Source: Candidatus Pelagisphaera phototrophica (GTDB lineage Bacteria; Verrucomicrobiota; Verrucomicrobiia; Opitutales; Opitutaceae). Taken from it: a stretch of DNA of 64,000 nucleotides. The notes beneath the pieces are model-generated. The model made no database searches. It saw nothing but the letters and a program-made list of their open reading frames with translations, and was not told the origin of the DNA. This document shows, one piece after another, positions 51,865-59,962 of the stretch (position 1 is the first letter of the stretch; every line of letters starts with the position of its first letter). Both the position numbers and the translations under genes were made by a program. The DNA lies in the NCBI RefSeq assembly GCF_014529625.1, contig NZ_CP076039.1, positions 2,480,001 to 2,544,000 on the forward strand, given 5' to 3'.

Positions 51865-53178
51865 ATGAAACTCACAGTCTATTTTCAGAAAAAAGTTTAT
51901 CGGTTTTGCCTCAGCTTGGCGACCCTTTCTACTATTCCGCCGATCTATTCGCAAGTTCCCGAATCGAGCGTGCCTGAAGCCTTGCTGCAAAAAGACATCG
52001 CGGGTCGCTACATCCTAGAGGCCCTCCAAAATAATCCTGGGATACTCTCGCAGGAAAAGCGTTACCAAGCGGCTCGTGCCTCAATCACCACCGCTCGGGC
52101 TTTGCCCAATCCGCGCGTTCAGATTACGCATTTCGTTGAGTCCATCCAGACGAGGACCGGACCGCAAAGGCAGGGAATTCAACTGCAACAGCCCTTTCCC
52201 GCTATGGGAACCCTAGGCCGAAGAACCGATATCGCTCGCACCCACGCTGAAGCACTTTGGCACGCTTACGCGATTCAACAGTTCAAGCTAATGGAGAAAG
52301 TCGTCGAAGCCGTGTTCGACCTGGCGTACATCGAGAAGTCAATCGAGATCACCCTTAAAAACATAGACCTTCTGCAGCGTCTCGAGTCCATTGCCGAGGA
52401 TCGCGTCAAATCGGGTGCCAGCTTAACCGATCTCTTGCGGATCCAAGTCGAAATCGAACGCCACTTCGATAGGGTATCCAAACAAGAAACGCAGCGGGAC
52501 TCTACTGGCTATACGCTGGAAAGTCTTTTGGGAAAGGACCCCACCGGCAGGCCGTTCACCCTAGACTGGGAAGCGCCGCAACCCATTGAGATTGAAACGA
52601 AACAGTGGATCTCCTTCCTACGCGAGCATTCCCCCGAGGTCGCCATGTTACGTTCAATTGAATCCAGCCAGGAAGCACGCGAACGATTGGCCAAGCTCGC
52701 GAACCGCCCCGAATGGTCTGTAGGATTAAACTACCTACGCACCGGCGATGCTTTGAATTCAGCAACTTCCGGAAGCGGCGACGACCCTTGGGCGATTATG
52801 GTCGGCGTATCACTCCCGATCTGGGGCAAGGCCAATAATGCCATCAGTATAGCGGCCGCTCTTGAAAAAGACGCCGTGTCTGCCCAAATCCTAAATCAGG
52901 AGAGAGTGCTTATTGGAAATGGAATGTCATGGATTGCCAAACTGGAAGACTCACAAAAACGCATCCAGAGATTCCAAACGAAGCTCATTCCACTTGTCCG
53001 ACAAGTCCAGGAAATCACCGAATCCAGCTACCAGTCGGGGAACGCCAGCGCGCTCGACATTATCGATAGCGACCGAGCCCTTCTCCAACAGGAAACTGAA
53101 TATTGGCGAGCCGCGGCGGACGCCTGGATCGCCCGCTGGAAACTCGCCACCCTCTCAGGAGGGCTCTGGTTGAACTAA
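51865..53178 (+). CDS. TolC-family outer-membrane efflux protein (CusC/CzcC-like)
   Basis: Outer-membrane channel of 437 aa, started at the ATG at 51865 that gives a signal peptide (YRFCLSLATLSTIPPIYSQ). Two OEP repeats are visible as long helices: ILEALQNNPGILSQEKRYQA onward and RERLAKLANRPEWSVGLNYL onward, with the typical VGVSLPIWGKANNAISIAAA of metal-efflux TolC proteins and the SSYQSGNASALDIIDSDRAL tail. It forms the outer-membrane duct for CusBA. Between it and cusB lies a 140-bp gap with a 9-nt periodic repeat. Confidence 0.88.
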   Translation: MKLTVYFQKKVYRFCLSLATLSTIPPIYSQVPESSVPEALLQKDIAGRYILEALQNNPGILSQEKRYQAARASITTARALPNPRVQITHFVESIQTRTGPQRQGIQLQQPFPAMGTLGRRTDIARTHAEALWHAYAIQQFKLMEKVVEAVFDLAYIEKSIEITLKNIDLLQRLESIAEDRVKSGASLTDLLRIQVEIERHFDRVSKQETQRDSTGYTLESLLGKDPTGRPFTLDWEAPQPIEIETKQWISFLREHSPEVAMLRSIESSQEARERLAKLANRPEWSVGLNYLRTGDALNSATSGSGDDPWAIMVGVSLPIWGKANNAISIAAALEKDAVSAQILNQERVLIGNGMSWIAKLEDSQKRIQRFQTKLIPLVRQVQEITESSYQSGNASALDIIDSDRALLQQETEYWRAAADAWIARWKLATLSGGLWLN

Positions 53179-53271
53179 ACTAATTAGCCCAGGAACTGAT
53201 ACCAGCCACAGAAAGCGTAAAATCCAGAAGAATGCTTAAAAACTTACACATACCCATTCAGATCCTATCAT

Positions 53272-53304
53272 CCTTTTGTGACTTCTGTGCTCCTTGTAGT
53301 TAAC
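53272..53304 (+). repeat. 9-nt periodic repeat (TGTG type), copy 1
   Basis: Three near-identical 9-base units of the form pyrimidine-rich plus TGTG/TGTA, then GTTAAC. It is the same family as the inverted copies flanking the GxxExxY gene. Located in the cusC-cusB gap. Confidence 0.6.
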
Positions 53305-53318
53305 CTAAAATTTTTATC

Positions 53319-55184
53319 ATGAAAACTAAAACGTATCTGATATCTGGAGGCATCGCCCTCCTACTAGCCATTTTCTTCCTTGGGCGCTGGACTGCACCAA
53401 ATTCCACCAACCCCCACGGGGACCATAATCAGTCGGCAACGGCGCCTTCTGCCCAACAGATTTGGAACTGCTCCATGCACCCACAGATTCAAGCGACCGA
53501 GCCGGGGAATTGTCCCATATGCGGCATGAAGCTCATTCCCATCGGTCAAGGGTCCGGATCCGAAGACGGGTCGAGATCGTTTAGTATGAGCGAAACCGCG
53601 AAAGCGTTGGCTGATATTCAGACCAGTCCCGTCGAAAAGCGATTTCCCCAAGCGGAAATTCGACTGGTGGGAAAACTCGGCTACGATGAAACCAAAGAAA
53701 AGTCCCTGACTGCCCGCTTCCCCGCCAGAATCGACGAGCTTTTTGTTAACTTCACTGGTATTCCCGTTAAGCAAGGAGATCACCTTGCTCTGGTTTACAG
53801 TCCGGAGCTTCTAACGGCTCAAAGTGAGTTACTATCCGCCTTCCAATACGATCCAAATGGCTCCACGACATTGGCAGCGAGAGAGAAACTACGTCTCTGG
53901 GATTTGCTTCCCCAACAGATTGATTCCATCATTCAAAGCGGTAAATCGAGCGACCATTTTGAACTTAAAGCCCCTATTAGTGGGGTCGTCGTCCACAAGA
54001 ATGTCAATGAAGGGGACTATATAAAGACGGGTCAGCCTTTGTTCCGAATTGTCGACCTCAGTGCTCTCTGGCTGCGCCTGGAAGCCTACGAATCCGATCT
54101 AGCCTGGCTTCGCTTTGGTCAGCAGGTGTCATTCAGTGTCGAGGCTTACCCCGGACAAACTTTTCAAGGACGGATCACTTTCATAAACCCAGAGCTCGAC
54201 CCGAAGTCACGCACCGTATCCGTTCGGGTAAACGTTCCCAACGGAGATCGTAAACTGAAGCCGGGCATGTTTGCCAAATCGATCGTCCGATCAAATATCG
54301 CACTGGCCGGTAAGGTCTACTCTCCAGCATTCGCCGGCAAGTGGATCAGTCCCATGCATCCGGAAATCGTAAAGGACGCTCCGGGTAAATGCGATATTTG
54401 CGGAATGGATCTTTTGCCTGCGGAAGAGCTGGGATACGTACAGGACCCAAATGCGGAACCCCCTCTTGTCGTACCCGCCTCCGCTGTACTGCGGACCGGA
54501 AAACGAGCTGTTGTTTATGTTAAGATTCCGGATACGGAAACGCCCACCTACGAAGGACGGGAAATTGAAATAGGAGCCCGCGCTGGGGACGTCTTCATCG
54601 TTTCCTCGGGTTTGAGTATAGGTGATCGCGTCGTAATCAATGGCGCATTTAAGATAGACAGCGCCCTTCAAATTAGAGCCAAGCCTAGCATGATGAATCC
54701 CGAAGGCGATGGACCGACACCCGATCACGATCATGGAGACACTGTGCCAACTACTGGGCAGAGCGAGCACATTGACGGCAATCTTCTCGAGTTTGATTCT
54801 GCGACGACGAAGGATGTTCTTCCCCACTACTTCGCTCTTCATTCTGCGCTGGCCGCTGACTCGATCGACGAAGCAAAGAAGGCCCTCAGGGAAATGATGG
54901 CGGCAACGGGTCATAGCGGTCCCGCTGGTGACCTGATTCACACAATGCTGAAAGCCGACTTGCTCGACGACCTCCGGAGACCCCACTTCGAAGTACTCTC
55001 CAATGCGCTAATCAAATCGGTTTCTAGCTACGATGAAGCCTTCGAAGGGAACCTTTTCCAAATGCACTGCCCAATGGTCTACCCTGACCGCGGTGCAGAC
55101 TGGCTGCAGAAAGACAACCAACTGAAAAACCCCTACTTCGGAGCAATGATGCAAACCTGTGGAGAGATTCATAAAGAATTTTAA
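53319..55184 (+). CDS. cusB: RND periplasmic adaptor CusB with two HMBD domains and DUF3347
   Basis: Membrane-fusion protein of 621 aa, longer than the usual 400. A membrane anchor (LISGGIALLLAIFFLGRW) is followed by a first heavy-metal-binding HMBD domain (residues 49-74, NCSMHPQIQ ... CPICGMKLIP), the barrel-sandwich/lipoyl region (APISGVVVHKNVNEGDYIK near 220), a second HMBD domain (about 343-372, SPMHPEIVKDAPGKCDICGM), the C-terminal adaptor part, and a DUF3347 domain (about 488-621) with MHCPMVYPDRGADWLQKDN and MMQTCGEIHKE. It links CusA to CusC and passes Cu(I) to the pump. The insertion of an HMBD inside the adaptor is unusual. Confidence 0.92.
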   Translation: MKTKTYLISGGIALLLAIFFLGRWTAPNSTNPHGDHNQSATAPSAQQIWNCSMHPQIQATEPGNCPICGMKLIPIGQGSGSEDGSRSFSMSETAKALADIQTSPVEKRFPQAEIRLVGKLGYDETKEKSLTARFPARIDELFVNFTGIPVKQGDHLALVYSPELLTAQSELLSAFQYDPNGSTTLAAREKLRLWDLLPQQIDSIIQSGKSSDHFELKAPISGVVVHKNVNEGDYIKTGQPLFRIVDLSALWLRLEAYESDLAWLRFGQQVSFSVEAYPGQTFQGRITFINPELDPKSRTVSVRVNVPNGDRKLKPGMFAKSIVRSNIALAGKVYSPAFAGKWISPMHPEIVKDAPGKCDICGMDLLPAEELGYVQDPNAEPPLVVPASAVLRTGKRAVVYVKIPDTETPTYEGREIEIGARAGDVFIVSSGLSIGDRVVINGAFKIDSALQIRAKPSMMNPEGDGPTPDHDHGDTVPTTGQSEHIDGNLLEFDSATTKDVLPHYFALHSALAADSIDEAKKALREMMAATGHSGPAGDLIHTMLKADLLDDLRRPHFEVLSNALIKSVSSYDEAFEGNLFQMHCPMVYPDRGADWLQKDNQLKNPYFGAMMQTCGEIHKEF

Positions 55185-55214
55185 TTAACCACAAAAAGTA
55201 CAAAATCTACAAGA
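55185..55214 (-). repeat. 9-nt periodic repeat, copy 2 (inverted)
   Basis: TTAAC followed by three units of the form CACA/TACA plus purines with 9-base spacing. It begins right after the cusB stop and ends just before the ATG of the GxxExxY gene; orientation is opposite to copies 1 and 3. Confidence 0.6.
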
Positions 55215-55215
55215 A

Positions 55216-55587
55216 ATGAATACGGAGGTCCAACAACTCACAGATACTGTACGCGAAACTGCATTTTCGCTTCATAGCTACTTGAAGAACGGCCTGCTCG
55301 AAAAAGTTTATAAAAATGGACTCGCACATCGGCTTCGAAAGAAAGGATTGAAAGTAAAACAACAGTGCCCAATTCGAGTCTACGATGAGGATAGAATACT
55401 CTTGGGAGAATACTTTGCCGATCTAGTTGTGGAAGAATTGATAATTATTGAACCGAAAGCAGTGAAGACACTTGCTGACGAGCACACCGCTCAGGTACTC
55501 GCCTATTTTAGATCGGCAAAGCTAAAACAAGGAATCCTTTTAAACTTCGGAAATCCTAAACTGCAAATCAAGAAACTGGCACAGTGA
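55216..55587 (+). CDS. GxxExxY protein
   Basis: Protein of 123 aa of the GxxExxY family (PD-(D/E)XK-like fold). The signature is NGLLEKVYKNGLAHRLRKKG, then EYFADLVVEELIIIEPKAVK with the E-x-K of a nuclease-like core, and a C-terminal QVLAYFRSAKLKQGILLNFG. The biological role of the family is unknown. It is inserted between cusB and cusA, where no gene is expected, and is flanked by inverted 9-nt periodic repeats, suggesting a small mobile or domesticated cassette. It is co-oriented with the operon, so it is read through. Confidence 0.92.
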   Translation: MNTEVQQLTDTVRETAFSLHSYLKNGLLEKVYKNGLAHRLRKKGLKVKQQCPIRVYDEDRILLGEYFADLVVEELIIIEPKAVKTLADEHTAQVLAYFRSAKLKQGILLNFGNPKLQIKKLAQ

Positions 55588-55602
55588 CAGCTCGCAACCT
55601 AA

Positions 55603-55634
55603 GTTTTTGTGCCTCCTGTGAATTCTGTGATTAG
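55603..55634 (+). repeat. 9-nt periodic repeat, copy 3
   Basis: Three TGTG-type units at 9-base spacing ending in GATTAG, the same orientation as copy 1 and opposite to copy 2. It lies 15 bp after the GxxExxY stop and 25 bp before cusA. Confidence 0.6.
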
Positions 55635-55658
55635 AACACAAGCTAAACCTATCATTAC

Positions 55659-58600
55659 ATGATCAATCAGCTCATACGTTTTTGTCTCGAGAATAAGATT
55701 GTCGTGGTCCTATTTACAGCGGCCTTGATTCTCTGGGGCATAATGGTGGCTCCGTTCGACTGGAAGATCGATGCCTTGCCACGCGATCCCGTACCCGTGG
55801 ATGCGATACCGGATATCGGAGAGAACCAGCAGATCGTATTCACCAAATGGATGGGGCGATCCCCGCAGGACATTGAAGACCAAATCACCTATCCGCTCAC
55901 AACGGCGCTTCTCGGACTTCCCCAGGTAAAGACGATTCGCAGCTATTCCATGTTCGGATTTTCCTCCATCTATATAATTTTCAAAGAGGAAGCAGAATTT
56001 TATTGGACGCGTAGTCGCATACTGGAGAAACTGAACAGCCTTCCTTCCGGCACGCTCCCGCAAAGCGTCTCACCGCAACTCGGTCCCGACGCGACTGCGC
56101 TGGGACAGGTATTCTGGTATACGCTCGAGGGACATACGCCCGACGGAAGCCCTTCTGGAGGCTGGGATCTCGATGAGCTCCGCTCTACGCAAGACTGGTA
56201 CGTTCGCTATGCTCTTCAAGGCGTCGATGGTGTCGCGGAAGTCGCCTCAATCGGAGGTTTCGTGAAAGAATATCAAGTCGATGTCGATCCCGATGCCCTG
56301 CGGGCCTATGGCATCGCCCTGCACGATGTCTACAACGCCGTCCGTGCCAGCAATATCGATGTCGGCGCTCGGACGATTGAAATCAACGCGGCGGAATATG
56401 TGGTTCGCGGGCTCGGATTCCTCGAATCTCTAGACGATCTTCGCCGAACGGTAATCACTCAACGGGACAATGTGCCCATAACCCTCGACCAGATTGCGGA
56501 AATAGAGTTTGGCCCGGCTCTCCGCCGCGGAGCCCTCGATAAAGCAGGGGCCGAAGCGGTCGGCGGTGTGGTAGTTACCCGCTATGGCGAAAACCCTCTC
56601 GCGGTCATTCAGCGCGTCAAAGATAAGATTGCCGAGATTTCGCCCGGACTCCCCAAGAAAACGCTCGAAGACGGAACCGAAAGCCAAGTTAAAATCGTTC
56701 CCTTCTATGATCGCACGAATCTTATCTATGAAACACTTGGCACTCTCGAAGACGCGGTAAGTCAGCAAATTCTGGTTACAATCATCGTCGTCGTCTTGAT
56801 GGTGCTGCATCTGAGAAGCGCCGCCCTCGTCTCAAGCGTCCTCCCACTGGCTGTACTTTTTGCCTTCGTCGGCATGAAACTCTTCAAGGTCGATGCCAAT
56901 GTGGTTGCGCTTTCAGGTATCGCCATCGCTATCGGCACCATTGTCGACATGGGAGTTGTTCTGATCGAAAACATTCTAAAACACTTGGACGAATCCTCGG
57001 AAGACGAAGATCGGCTTGAGGTCGTATACAGAGCTTGCACGGAAGTGGGCAGCGCAGTGGTGACTGCAGTTCTTACAACTGTTATCAGCTTCCTCCCGGT
57101 ATTCACGATGGAAGCCGCCGAAGGAAAGCTATTTCGGCCCTTGGCATTCACGAAAACATTCGCTCTGGTCGGTTCAATCGTAGTCGCGCTAACGATCATC
57201 CCTCCGCTCGCCCATTGGCTGATAGCGGGAAAGTTCAAAGCGGGCCGGACGAAAATGGGACTTTGGGTAGTCACCGCTCTCGCCGGAGTTTTTTGTCCCT
57301 TCGCTTTAATCTGGTTTCCCGCATGGCTTGGCTTTGCTCTCTTCGGCGTTGCTTCGTTTAACCTCCTCAAGGACCGCCTCCCCACGCAAACCCAACAATG
57401 GGTGATCTACAGTTGCAATTTTCTGATTACCCTTACAGTGGCTCTAGTTCTCGCGTCTGACTGGAAACCGATCGGCCCAGATCAGTCGATAGCAAACGCA
57501 GCTTTCGTTATTGTTGTTATAGGCGGACTGCTAGGATCCTTTCATTTTTTCATCAAGTACTACTCTTTCCTTCTGGCGTGGGTACTGAGAGCAAAAGGGC
57601 TTTTCCTCACTTTCAATGCGGCGATCATTCTATTTGGCTTGATGGTCTGGATCGGCTTTGGAGCCGTTTTCAGTTGGCTTCCGAACGCCCTTAAAGAGAA
57701 CAGGATGTGGAGCAGTGCCGCCCACACGCTTCCTGGTCTAGGTAAGGAGTTCATGCCCACTCTCGATGAAGGTTCCTATCTTTACATGCCAACCACGATG
57801 CCCCATGCTTCGATCGGCGAAGTCATGGATGTACTGCGAAAGCAAGACATGGCGATCAATGCCATACCCGAAGTTGAAATTGCGGTCGGAAAACTCGGCC
57901 GCGTGGACAGCCCGCTGGATCCCGCTCCCATTTCAATGATCGAAACGATCATATCCTATAAAACCGAATACAAGGTAGACAGCAACGGTCGTATCCTCAC
58001 GTATTCCTTTGATCGAGAAAAAGGAGCCTATGAGTATAGCCCCGGGGGAGATCTCATCCCCGACAAAAACGGAAAATCGTTCCGACAGTGGCGCAGCCAC
58101 ATTAACTCGCCCGAAGACATATGGGCTGAGATTGTTCGAGCAGCCACCATACCCGGGACGACCTCTGCTCCGGAGCTTCAGCCGATCGCCGCTCGCATCG
58201 TCATGCTCCAAAGCGGAATGCGGGCTCCAATGGGCATGAAGATCTACGGACCCGATCTTGAAAACATTGAGAAGGTGGCCTTGCGCATCGAATCTCTCTT
58301 GAAACAGGTTCCCGCCATAAAGCCGGAAGCGGTACTGGCCGATCGCATGGTCGGAAAGCCCTATCTCGAGATCGATATCGACAGGGATGCCACTGCCCGC
58401 TACGGCATTAAAATCGCCATGGTGCAGGACGTGATTGAGGTAGCCATTGGGGGCAAACCCATCACCCAGACGGTCGAGGGGCGCGAACGCTACGGGGTTC
58501 GCGTACGCTACCAGCGGGAACTGCGCGACAGTATCGAAGAAATTGAGAACATTCTCGTCACCGCTCCGGATGGCACTCAGATACCACTGGGGGAACTTTC

Positions 58601-59402
58601 AACGATAAACTATCTGAGAGGCCCCCAGGTGATCAAGGCAGAGGACACCTTTCTCGTCGGTTATGTAATATTCGACAAGCAAGCAGACTTCTCGGAAGTA
58701 GACGTTGTTGAGCAGGCCCAAGGCTTCTTAGCGGACAAGATCGAAACCGGTGAGCTTTCGATTCCGTCAGGCGTCAGCTACAAATTCACTGGCAGCTACG
58801 AGAACCAAGTTCGAGCGGAAAAGAAGCTAATGGTTGTGCTGCCAATTGCTCTTTTCGCAATATGGCTAATTTTGTATTTCCAATTCAAGCGTATCACCAC
58901 TACTTTGCTTGTGTTCTCAGGGATACTATTCGCTTGGTCCGGAGGCTTCATCCTAATCTGGTTCTACAATCAACCCTGGTTTCTCAACTTCGAGCTCTTC
59001 GGAGAAAATGTGCGATCGCTCTTTCAAATGAGCACTATCAACCTCAGCGTCGCCGTCTGGGTCGGATTCCTCGCCCTATTCGGAATCGCCACCGACAATG
59101 GAGTCATCGTCTGCACATACCTTCAACAGGTGTTCAGAGATAAGTCGCCGCAATCCATCGAGGAGATCCGGGAAGCGACCCTCATTGCCGGCACACGCCG
59201 CGTACGTCCCGCCATGATGACGAGTGCCACTACCATCCTAGCGCTACTTCCTGTATTGACATCTACAGGACGCGGCTCCGACATAATGGTTCCCATGGCC
59301 ATACCCACGTTCGGAGGCATGCTCCTAGCTATCATCACAATCTTCGTCGTGCCCGTACTCTATTGTACGATCGAAGAGCTGAGAATCAAATTCAAACATT
59401 GA
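55659..59402 (+). CDS. cusA: Copper/silver RND efflux pump CusA
   Basis: HME-type RND pump of 1247 aa, about 200 longer than E. coli CusA. Start QLIRFCLENKIVVVLFTAAL, IPDIGENQQIVFTKWMGRSP, and central IAIAIGTIVDMGVVLIENIL with the proton-relay Asp. The three methionines used for Cu/Ag transport in CusA are present at equivalent positions: M710 (YMPTTMP), M760 (PISMIET) and M849 (RIVMLQSG). Extra length comes from a membrane-rich insertion around residues 520-680 (WLIAGKFKAGRTKMGLW and following) and the DLIPDKNGKSFRQWRSH loop. It works with CusB and CusC to expel Cu(I)/Ag(I). Confidence 0.95.
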   Translation: MINQLIRFCLENKIVVVLFTAALILWGIMVAPFDWKIDALPRDPVPVDAIPDIGENQQIVFTKWMGRSPQDIEDQITYPLTTALLGLPQVKTIRSYSMFGFSSIYIIFKEEAEFYWTRSRILEKLNSLPSGTLPQSVSPQLGPDATALGQVFWYTLEGHTPDGSPSGGWDLDELRSTQDWYVRYALQGVDGVAEVASIGGFVKEYQVDVDPDALRAYGIALHDVYNAVRASNIDVGARTIEINAAEYVVRGLGFLESLDDLRRTVITQRDNVPITLDQIAEIEFGPALRRGALDKAGAEAVGGVVVTRYGENPLAVIQRVKDKIAEISPGLPKKTLEDGTESQVKIVPFYDRTNLIYETLGTLEDAVSQQILVTIIVVVLMVLHLRSAALVSSVLPLAVLFAFVGMKLFKVDANVVALSGIAIAIGTIVDMGVVLIENILKHLDESSEDEDRLEVVYRACTEVGSAVVTAVLTTVISFLPVFTMEAAEGKLFRPLAFTKTFALVGSIVVALTIIPPLAHWLIAGKFKAGRTKMGLWVVTALAGVFCPFALIWFPAWLGFALFGVASFNLLKDRLPTQTQQWVIYSCNFLITLTVALVLASDWKPIGPDQSIANAAFVIVVIGGLLGSFHFFIKYYSFLLAWVLRAKGLFLTFNAAIILFGLMVWIGFGAVFSWLPNALKENRMWSSAAHTLPGLGKEFMPTLDEGSYLYMPTTMPHASIGEVMDVLRKQDMAINAIPEVEIAVGKLGRVDSPLDPAPISMIETIISYKTEYKVDSNGRILTYSFDREKGAYEYSPGGDLIPDKNGKSFRQWRSHINSPEDIWAEIVRAATIPGTTSAPELQPIAARIVMLQSGMRAPMGMKIYGPDLENIEKVALRIESLLKQVPAIKPEAVLADRMVGKPYLEIDIDRDATARYGIKIAMVQDVIEVAIGGKPITQTVEGRERYGVRVRYQRELRDSIEEIENILVTAPDGTQIPLGELSTINYLRGPQVIKAEDTFLVGYVIFDKQADFSEVDVVEQAQGFLADKIETGELSIPSGVSYKFTGSYENQVRAEKKLMVVLPIALFAIWLILYFQFKRITTTLLVFSGILFAWSGGFILIWFYNQPWFLNFELFGENVRSLFQMSTINLSVAVWVGFLALFGIATDNGVIVCTYLQQVFRDKSPQSIEEIREATLIAGTRRVRPAMMTSATTILALLPVLTSTGRGSDIMVPMAIPTFGGMLLAIITIFVVPVLYCTIEELRIKFKH

Positions 59403-59461: not shown

Positions 59462-59962
59462 ATGAAAACACTCATTGCGTCATCTATCGCAGTCATCGTG
59501 ACAACATTTAGCTTTGCGGACATAGAAGCGGAACTCACATGTTCAACTCCTCAGTTCGAAACCTATTTCGAAGCCCAGACCGCGCTTGCCAACGACGATC
59601 TCTCCGCAGCTCAAACCGTAACGAATTCATTAGTCGAGCTAGCAAAGGAAAAGGGTTGCCCACTCGAGAGAAAAGAGTGTTGCGCCGCTGAACTTGAGGC
59701 CGCTAGCAAAATCGCTAAAACGACCGACATCGCAACGGCCCGAAGAGCATTTAAACGGTGGTCCGATGCGCTTTTCGCTAAGTTAGAAGATTCCGGCTTG
59801 GCAGAAGGTCCCGTCTACAAGATGCACTGCCCGATGGCTTTTGGGAATACTGGCGGCATCTGGCTTCAGAACTCGAGCGATCTTAGAAATCCCTATTACG
59901 GAGCCATGATGCTCAAGTGTGGCATGATTCAGAAAGAGTATGAATCGAAACCGGAATCATAG
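59462..59962 (+). CDS. Exported DUF3347 copper-associated protein
   Basis: Periplasmic protein of 166 aa with a signal peptide (IASSIAVIVTTFSFADIE) and a DUF3347 domain. The domain ends with KMHCPMAFGNTGGIWLQNSS and GAMMLKCGMIQKEY, closely parallel to the C-terminal domain of CusB in the same operon. MxCPM and CGM are plausible Cu(I) ligands. It starts 60 bp after cusA, within the operon. Probably a soluble copper carrier feeding CusB; this role is inferred. Confidence 0.88.
   Translation: MKTLIASSIAVIVTTFSFADIEAELTCSTPQFETYFEAQTALANDDLSAAQTVTNSLVELAKEKGCPLERKECCAAELEAASKIAKTTDIATARRAFKRWSDALFAKLEDSGLAEGPVYKMHCPMAFGNTGGIWLQNSSDLRNPYYGAMMLKCGMIQKEYESKPES

Follow-up and report, generated by a model that had tools for sequence, protein, structure and literature searches.

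REPINs and the intervening sequences (IVS) of 23S rRNA genes are among the described systems closest to the locus reported here. In PMC3116915, REPIN groups are described as pairing with specific RAYTs. For Coxiella, PMC4990558 describes a 23S IVS that encodes a protein of the four-helix-bundle family, in which tandem heptamers GACAGAT precede the open reading frame (ORF) and which is excised by RNase III; a pentameric ring is cited there for a relative of the IVS protein, and the origin of such elements is called unclear. We have analysed a stretch of 64,000 nucleotides (nt) from Candidatus Pelagisphaera phototrophica (contig NZ_CP076039.1, positions 2,480,001 to 2,544,000, hereafter the window), in which a GxxExxY gene flanked by two inverted arrays of 9-nt period lies between cusB and cusA. 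On balance, we think it probable that the gene and its two arrays make up a single insertion element, about 0.45 kb long, which inserts between genes; the arrays would serve as its ends and would also be what the encoded protein recognises.

The GxxExxY cassette of the cus operon

The GxxExxY gene encodes 123 amino acids (aa) and passed the curated cut-offs of both TIGR04256 (E 4.2e-35, 120.6 bits, cut-off 35) and PF13366 (E 1e-31, 110.1 bits, cut-off 22). This agreed with a preliminary description of the window, made from the letters alone, in which such a gene had been placed between cusB and cusA. The features of the region are the following:

55216..55587, + strand: GxxExxY gene (TIGR04256/PF13366 profiles; predicted PD-(D/E)XK fold; D69, E79, K81, Q93 and Y97 kept)
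55185..55214, + strand: left array of 9-nt period, TTAAC plus three YACA-purine units, recognised by sequence and abutting the GxxExxY start codon
55603..55634, - strand: right, inverted array of 9-nt period, recognised by sequence, downstream of the GxxExxY stop codon
53272..53304, - strand: third array, inverted, in the cusC-cusB gap, recognised by matches to both GxxExxY arms
53206..53232, + strand: candidate left partner, degenerate, with which the third array would form a gutted cassette or a mini-hairpin; seen by eye and not significant
53319..55184, + strand: cusB-like periplasmic adaptor, upstream neighbour of the GxxExxY gene
55659..59402, + strand: cusA/czcA-like RND pump, downstream neighbour of the GxxExxY gene

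The period-9 self-similarity of the left array was 13/18 and that of the right array 12/18, values reached by 6 and 7 of 2000 shuffles, respectively; both are nonetheless weak, lying below the survey threshold of 14/18. The flanking inverted copies proposed earlier were thus found, though in a decayed state. The similarity between the two window arms was not significant when taken alone (66/1000 shuffles). The right array matched the right flank of a GxxExxY gene located before cusA in another genome (G057, locus L393; 0/1000). The third copy that had been described in the cusC-cusB gap was also recovered, since the array at 53272-53304 matched the left arm (1/1000) and the right arm (3/1000). 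With an inward-facing partner at about 53206-53232, the cusC-cusB insert would possibly be a gutted pair; the left and right halves of this pair were not significantly similar (341/1000) and the predicted RNA fold of the gap was ordinary (z -0.48). Inverted doublets forming hairpins in intergenic DNA were present at other loci, the doublet of this gap being not significant.

None of the 130 flanks of window genes reached a periodicity of at least 14/18, and scanning the entire window without a motif, at 16/20, revealed no periodic stretch because the window arrays are too decayed. Other genomes show the pattern far more clearly, the window cassette being one of its decayed examples. No Rfam family scored above its gathering score in window positions 52900-55900 or in seven loci, and the profile searches detected no transposase family at the window cassette, PDDEXK_3/GxxExxY alone being matched.

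We have then compared ten cus loci, the window's own included. The cusB-cusA gap, which measures 474 base pairs (bp) in the window, was reduced to 13 bp in G008 (91% protein identity at the start of cusA) and to 13, 27, -4 and -8 bp in G089, G073, G032 and G019, respectively. The gaps of G063 (204 bp) and G035 (106 bp) held other sequence, and their cusA was less similar. In G057, a GxxExxY gene (67% identity over 91 residues) lay directly 5' of cusA, with a similar array on its right; the contig stops within this gene, leaving cusB out of view, and in G033 no cusB was found. The cusC-cusB gap was 140 bp in the window, whereas cusC and cusB are 29 bp apart in G008, separated by 4 bp in G073 and overlapping in G089; three further loci yielded no cusC. 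Since the cus gaps are short or empty in several relatives, both window gaps hold inserts relative to them. The empty sites that the preliminary description had proposed to look for were present at the cus loci of several relatives, and others were found between gatA and gatB (see below).

The same genome contained three more GxxExxY copies (L001, L003 and L004), all of them broken, one by an in-frame stop and two being fragments. By eye, each adjoins another repeat type (CGCAAAGGA, CACGGATGA and CACAGAGAA). The cassette is not peculiar to the cus operon. When this genome was searched with a looser array pattern, 165 matches were obtained against 71 for the control, a result too noisy to be used. 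After cusA, positions 59462-59962 encode a DUF3347/LIC13259-like protein, the C-terminus of which resembles the end of the window CusB by eye.

Periodic flanks, paired ends and array type

GxxExxY genes are common: in this bacterial family 84 of 100 genomes contained one, as did 103 of 194 genomes drawn across the phylum. The 214 loci collected yielded 209 cassettes covering the profile, 208 of them with a stop codon; close relatives were kept in, with no thinning. The flanks were subjected to a motif-free test, in which at least 14 of 18 positions had to be repeated at one period, and 411 of the 416 flanks could be used (those below 90 bp or containing N were dropped). Strong periodicity was detected in 88/411 flanks, 45 at period 9, 25 at period 8, 17 at period 10 and one at period 13, against 1.0 expected from shuffles, 10/407 in pieces taken 600-700 bp away and 30/696 when the flanks of genes predicted over 400 kb of genome G071 were tested. 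That repeats of the CACAAAGGA type accompany GxxExxY genes, as had been suggested from the window, proved to be right and a strong effect.

The core C-R-C-(A/C/G)-R-A-(G/T), where R is a purine, was present in two or more copies within the 140 bp to the left of 118/208 cassettes and, inverted, on the right of 133/208, versus 30/404 control pieces located 400-800 bp off, with the core spacing peaking at 8, 9 and 10 nt. Terminal inverted repeats around the GxxExxY ORF were present across the family, and at many loci beyond the window the left array lay close before the start codon. The cassette was co-directional with both neighbours in 81 of 168 cases and with neither in 28. The rule that it always points along its operon, drawn from the first loci, was dropped given these 28 cases with both neighbours opposite. 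At one locus (L378, genome G005, 5003436-5004194), two tandem GxxExxY matches, the second much weaker in score, shared one open frame of 277 aa.

Chains of core units on both sides were present in 75 of the 208 cassettes. The consensus core was identical left and right in 58 of these 75, compared with 16% of cross-cassette pairs. Within genomes holding two such cassettes (7 genomes, 14 cassettes), the cores matched in 79% versus 14% (78/5000 permutations), and the left and right periods were equal in 27/30 cassettes, the permutation mean being 11.6 (0/5000). The array type drifts from one cassette to another with both ends changing together, as paired ends would.

The array type also followed the protein tree. 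In the tree built from 201 proteins, 105 of them labelled with a period, the period required 22 changes versus 43 with shuffled labels and the core (136 labelled) 57 versus 90, in both cases with 0/300 shuffles reaching the observed value, and both signals held when labels were shuffled within bins of GC content. A cross-phylum tree was built from 76 of 80 cassettes of named genomes belonging to 14 named phyla, three rows being without a phylum. Here, the core (64 labelled) required 32 changes versus 42.3 (0/1000; within-phylum shuffles, 0/1000) and the period (36 labelled) 10 versus 14.8 (0/1000; within-phylum shuffles, 4/1000). When the core positions were taken singly, positions 2 and 5 gave a clear signal and position 7 a weaker one (18 and 20/1000), while position 4 failed the within-phylum test (419/1000). 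The unit CGCAAAG at period 8 was common to four relatives from Desulfobacteraceae, KSB1, SAR324 and a cyanobacterium.

Unit position 5 covaried with residues 9, 10, 11 and 13 of helix 1 more strongly than did labels simulated along the tree (0/200 each). In the first set, Lys or Arg at residue 10 occurred with A in 26/26 cassettes and Asp or Glu with G in 40/41; such a residue was present in 67 of 136 cassettes, with just two well-supported independent switches. Among 73 new cassettes, 44 of which had a called unit, Asp or Glu again occurred with G (13/14). The pairing of Lys or Arg with A fell to 5/10, and residue 10 was rejected as a specificity code. Thr at residue 9 occurred with G in 56/61 cassettes of the first set and 21/22 of the new one, a rule chosen after the new data were seen. 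The relation between helix-1 residues and unit position 5, as read from sequences, is an association and not a code.

A second protein family showed its own period. Genes matching TIGR02436, encoding four-helix bundles of the Avd/S23p-like type, were found in 81/100 genomes of the bacterial family, and in many of 30 loci (L340-L369), as well as in L304, L307 and L308, they lay between inverted arrays of many sequence types. Strong periodicity was detected in 32/60 of their flanks, in all 32 at period 7, a period seen in none of the 88 strongly periodic GxxExxY flanks.

Arrays without genes and a site with many occupants

We have searched the 100 genomes of the family with the 9-nt pattern, allowing one mismatch and using the reversed pattern as control; long arrays are counted repeatedly in this search. 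The pattern matched 5374 times versus 258 for the control, and the GxxExxY matches of the same genomes sum to 370, so that most arrays are not at GxxExxY genes. The density of arrays correlated with that of GxxExxY genes (rho 0.51; genus-centred over 81 genomes, rho 0.37, p 6e-4), and its median was 4.9/Mb in the 16 genomes without a detected gene versus 11.2/Mb in the other 84. In 400 kb of G071 we have found 34 arrays, among them ten inward-facing pairs without a GxxExxY gene. The 19 distinct gene-free arrays of this one genome matched the arms of its own 11 cassettes with a mean best identity of 0.725, against 0.653 (standard deviation 0.021) for 11 random foreign cassettes, 0/1000 reaching 0.725. 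This resemblance to resident cassettes parallels the pairing of REPINs with RAYTs, a parallel drawn for one genome. Abundance of the repeat independently of the gene had been named in the preliminary description as a result that would refute it. This was borne out in part: the arrays are abundant away from the gene, but their density tracks gene number and, in the genome compared, they resemble the resident arms.

Six copies of an array hairpin of 72-76 bp were found in G071 at about 2.89-3.09 Mb (L279-L289). By eye, several of these hairpins have a further outer inverted motif near ATACCAA, and one hairpin type is nested in the loop of another.

These data bear on the possibility that the arrays are REP-like hairpins in their own right, whose spread has another cause, with the GxxExxY and four-helix-bundle genes as passengers in hairpin loops. 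We regard this as unlikely. It would fit the large excess of array matches over genes, the persistence of arrays in genomes without a detected gene and the existence of gene-free and nested hairpins. Free passengers would nevertheless mix, whereas the period is specific to the family (7 for the four-helix bundle, 8-10 for GxxExxY) and, within GxxExxY, to the lineage; in addition, array density tracks gene number and, in the single genome compared, the arrays are of the type of its resident genes.

The gap between gatA and gatB provided a site with several occupants. From 95 genomes with gatB, we have taken 50 loci, namely the 30 best gatB matches and 20 hand-picked ones, mostly not beside a known GxxExxY match; the sample is not random and the shares of occupancy are not rates. 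Nineteen gaps were of at most 45 bp, 11 held a GxxExxY cassette, one a GxxExxY relic (weak profile match), three a four-helix-bundle cassette and 14 other inserts of 80-172 bp, with two not classified. By coordinates, a GxxExxY gene lay just 5' of gatB in nine further genomes. In genus g17, two genomes carried the four-helix-bundle cassette and one the GxxExxY cassette, and in genus g16 one genome carried a hairpin and two were empty, with the gatA stop and the gatB start overlapping (TGATG). By eye, six of the 14 other inserts were gene-free hairpins of inverted CACG- or CGCG-type arrays, and five of these six, when folded, gave z values of -9.9, -6.4, -1.8, -6.5 and -3.5. Four inserts of 95-119 bp at this site (L302, L311, L318 and L322) carried, by eye, inverted repeats of the types GCGAGTA, CCAAGCTC and CAGAATT-like, perhaps from further element families.

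Hairpins of this kind could instead act at the RNA level, with the arrays pairing in the mRNA, hiding the start site and being cut by RNase III, and with an autoregulated, immobile gene. Such control is suggested by the position of the left array, directly at the start codon in the window and shortly upstream of it at many other loci, by the folds of the gene-free hairpins, and by the RNase III excision described for the Coxiella rRNA IVS in PMC4990558. We consider it quite unlikely as the explanation of the arrays, as it leaves unexplained the gene-free hairpins, the empty sites, the several occupants per site and the sharing of array type across phyla, and the orientation of the gene does not always agree with that of its neighbours (with both in 81/168, with neither in 28/168).

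The encoded protein, a proposed mechanism and known elements

The structure of the GxxExxY protein was predicted with confidence (predicted local distance difference test 93.8) and has a restriction-endonuclease-like fold. Across 30 sequences, D69, E79, K81, Q93 and Y97 were invariant (D, ExK and QxxxY), the ELK of most family members being EPK in the window protein. QxxxY is a mark of the RecB/Cas4 group. The best structural match was Cas4 SSO0001 (PDB 4ic1; Z 10.0, root-mean-square deviation 3.4 over 98 residues), with the next entry at Z 8.2 and the other listed entries below 8, values that may reflect no more than a common arrangement; the best Foldseek E was 1.8e-3 and no significant sequence relative was found in PDB (best E 0.56). 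The protein resembles a minimal Cas4/RecB-like PD-(D/E)XK nuclease in its model and its invariant residues. Although the predicted nuclease fold and the wide, patchy and multi-copy distribution could also suit a defence or addiction module under selection, with the arrays as operator sites, this is very improbable given a cassette of about one gene plus arrays in size, without room for a partner, and array matches far exceeding the genes.

A single insertion element is suggested by the anatomy of the cassettes, their matching ends, the lineage-linked period and unit, the occupied and empty sites, the gene-free hairpins and the rise of array abundance with gene number. Each array would consist of several 7-nt cores C-R-C-N-R-A-K (K being G or T), spaced by 8-10 nt and facing inward, and since the arrays face inward the two ends of a single-stranded DNA or RNA copy could pair into a long hairpin. 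The nuclease would most likely recognise its own arrays, perhaps as a hairpin in single-stranded DNA during replication, and its binding to or cutting of the arrays or hairpin would lead to the spread or maintenance of the element, with cutting and repair copying it into new gaps. Gene-less elements would persist as array-loop-array hairpins moved in trans, like REPINs beside RAYTs.

Several results weigh against this interpretation. GxxExxY was nearly absent from plasmids (8 of 72,556 records), from phages (0/50,697) and from viral contigs (one locus), as covered by one protein query each and one profile-derived scan; transfer between phyla, if real, would therefore use chromosomal DNA. No target-site duplication was seen by eye at filled and empty gatA-gatB sites, the compared genomes being too diverged. 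In 69/208 cassettes, neither side had a chain of at least two called units. Arrays were also present in the 16 genomes in which no gene was detected (317 matches versus 24 for the control), and the within-genus contrast of array density was not significant (7 genera, p 0.11). The host phylum also clusters on the 76-cassette tree (25 changes versus 31.2), so that shared descent explains part of the array signal. The residue-10 rule also failed for Lys or Arg on new cassettes.

The preliminary description had interpreted the locus as a small mobile or self-maintaining unit, and this is partly supported. Occupied and empty sites, and a gene and array type shared across phyla, speak for such a unit; its movement is the step that we infer. 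In the literature searched (GxxExxY, TIGR04256, PF13366 and PDDEXK_3), we have found no paper on the role of GxxExxY. The papers naming these families concern a giant virus, reverse transcriptases and Arctic algae, and none, in the portions available (PMC8934634 included), is apparently on repeats, while those containing the literal repeat strings are unrelated by title.

More tentatively, and with considerable doubt, we propose a general class of tiny bacterial insertion elements with tandem-array ends, whose period would be set by the encoded protein and read via repeated subunit contacts, 7 nt for the ring-forming four-helix bundle and 8, 9 or 10 nt for the GxxExxY lineages. On this view, the 23S IVS would represent those few copies whose insertion site happened to be an rRNA gene, and gene-less debris of such elements would make up much of the hairpin DNA found between genes. 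If GxxExxY does drive a hairpin element, this would give an origin to a large share of the intergenic repeats in these genomes. The origin of the 23S rRNA IVS would become testable as well, since ordinary operons contain genes of the same protein family flanked by period-7 arrays, and the link between protein family and repeat period offers an unusual handle for biochemistry.

Compared with Cas4/RecB-family nucleases such as SSO0001, the GxxExxY protein shares the D, ExK and QxxxY residues and has its best structural match there, but reaches only about 60% of the length. Insertion sequences and miniature inverted-repeat transposable elements have in common with the cassette the inverted ends, the empty sites and the gene-less derivatives; the cassette differs in having no known transposase domain, no recognised target duplication and ends that are drifting tandem arrays. 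RAYTs are HUH transposases, whereas the protein described here is a PD-(D/E)XK nuclease by fold, for which Pfam gives PDDEXK_3 alone and no Y1/HUH transposase. The repeat is also a tandem array whose period follows the protein, spread over many phyla. Short inverted repeats, predicted hairpins in intergenic DNA and repeat groups tied to specific genes are nonetheless common to both systems (PMC3116915). The 23S IVS with an S23p ORF are likewise inverted repeats bounding a short ORF, of about 0.43 kb, and the Coxiella heptamers (PMC4990558) match the period 7 found here at four-helix-bundle genes. The known IVS lie inside 23S rRNA genes, whereas the present elements lie between protein genes, that of the window carrying GxxExxY with period 9 between cusB and cusA. 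By analogy, the Coxiella 23S IVS may be the same kind of element residing in an rRNA gene, and the best reading of the cassette is an insertion element that has protein-specific arrays for ends and would operate in the manner of REPIN/RAYT pairs or of the rRNA IVS.

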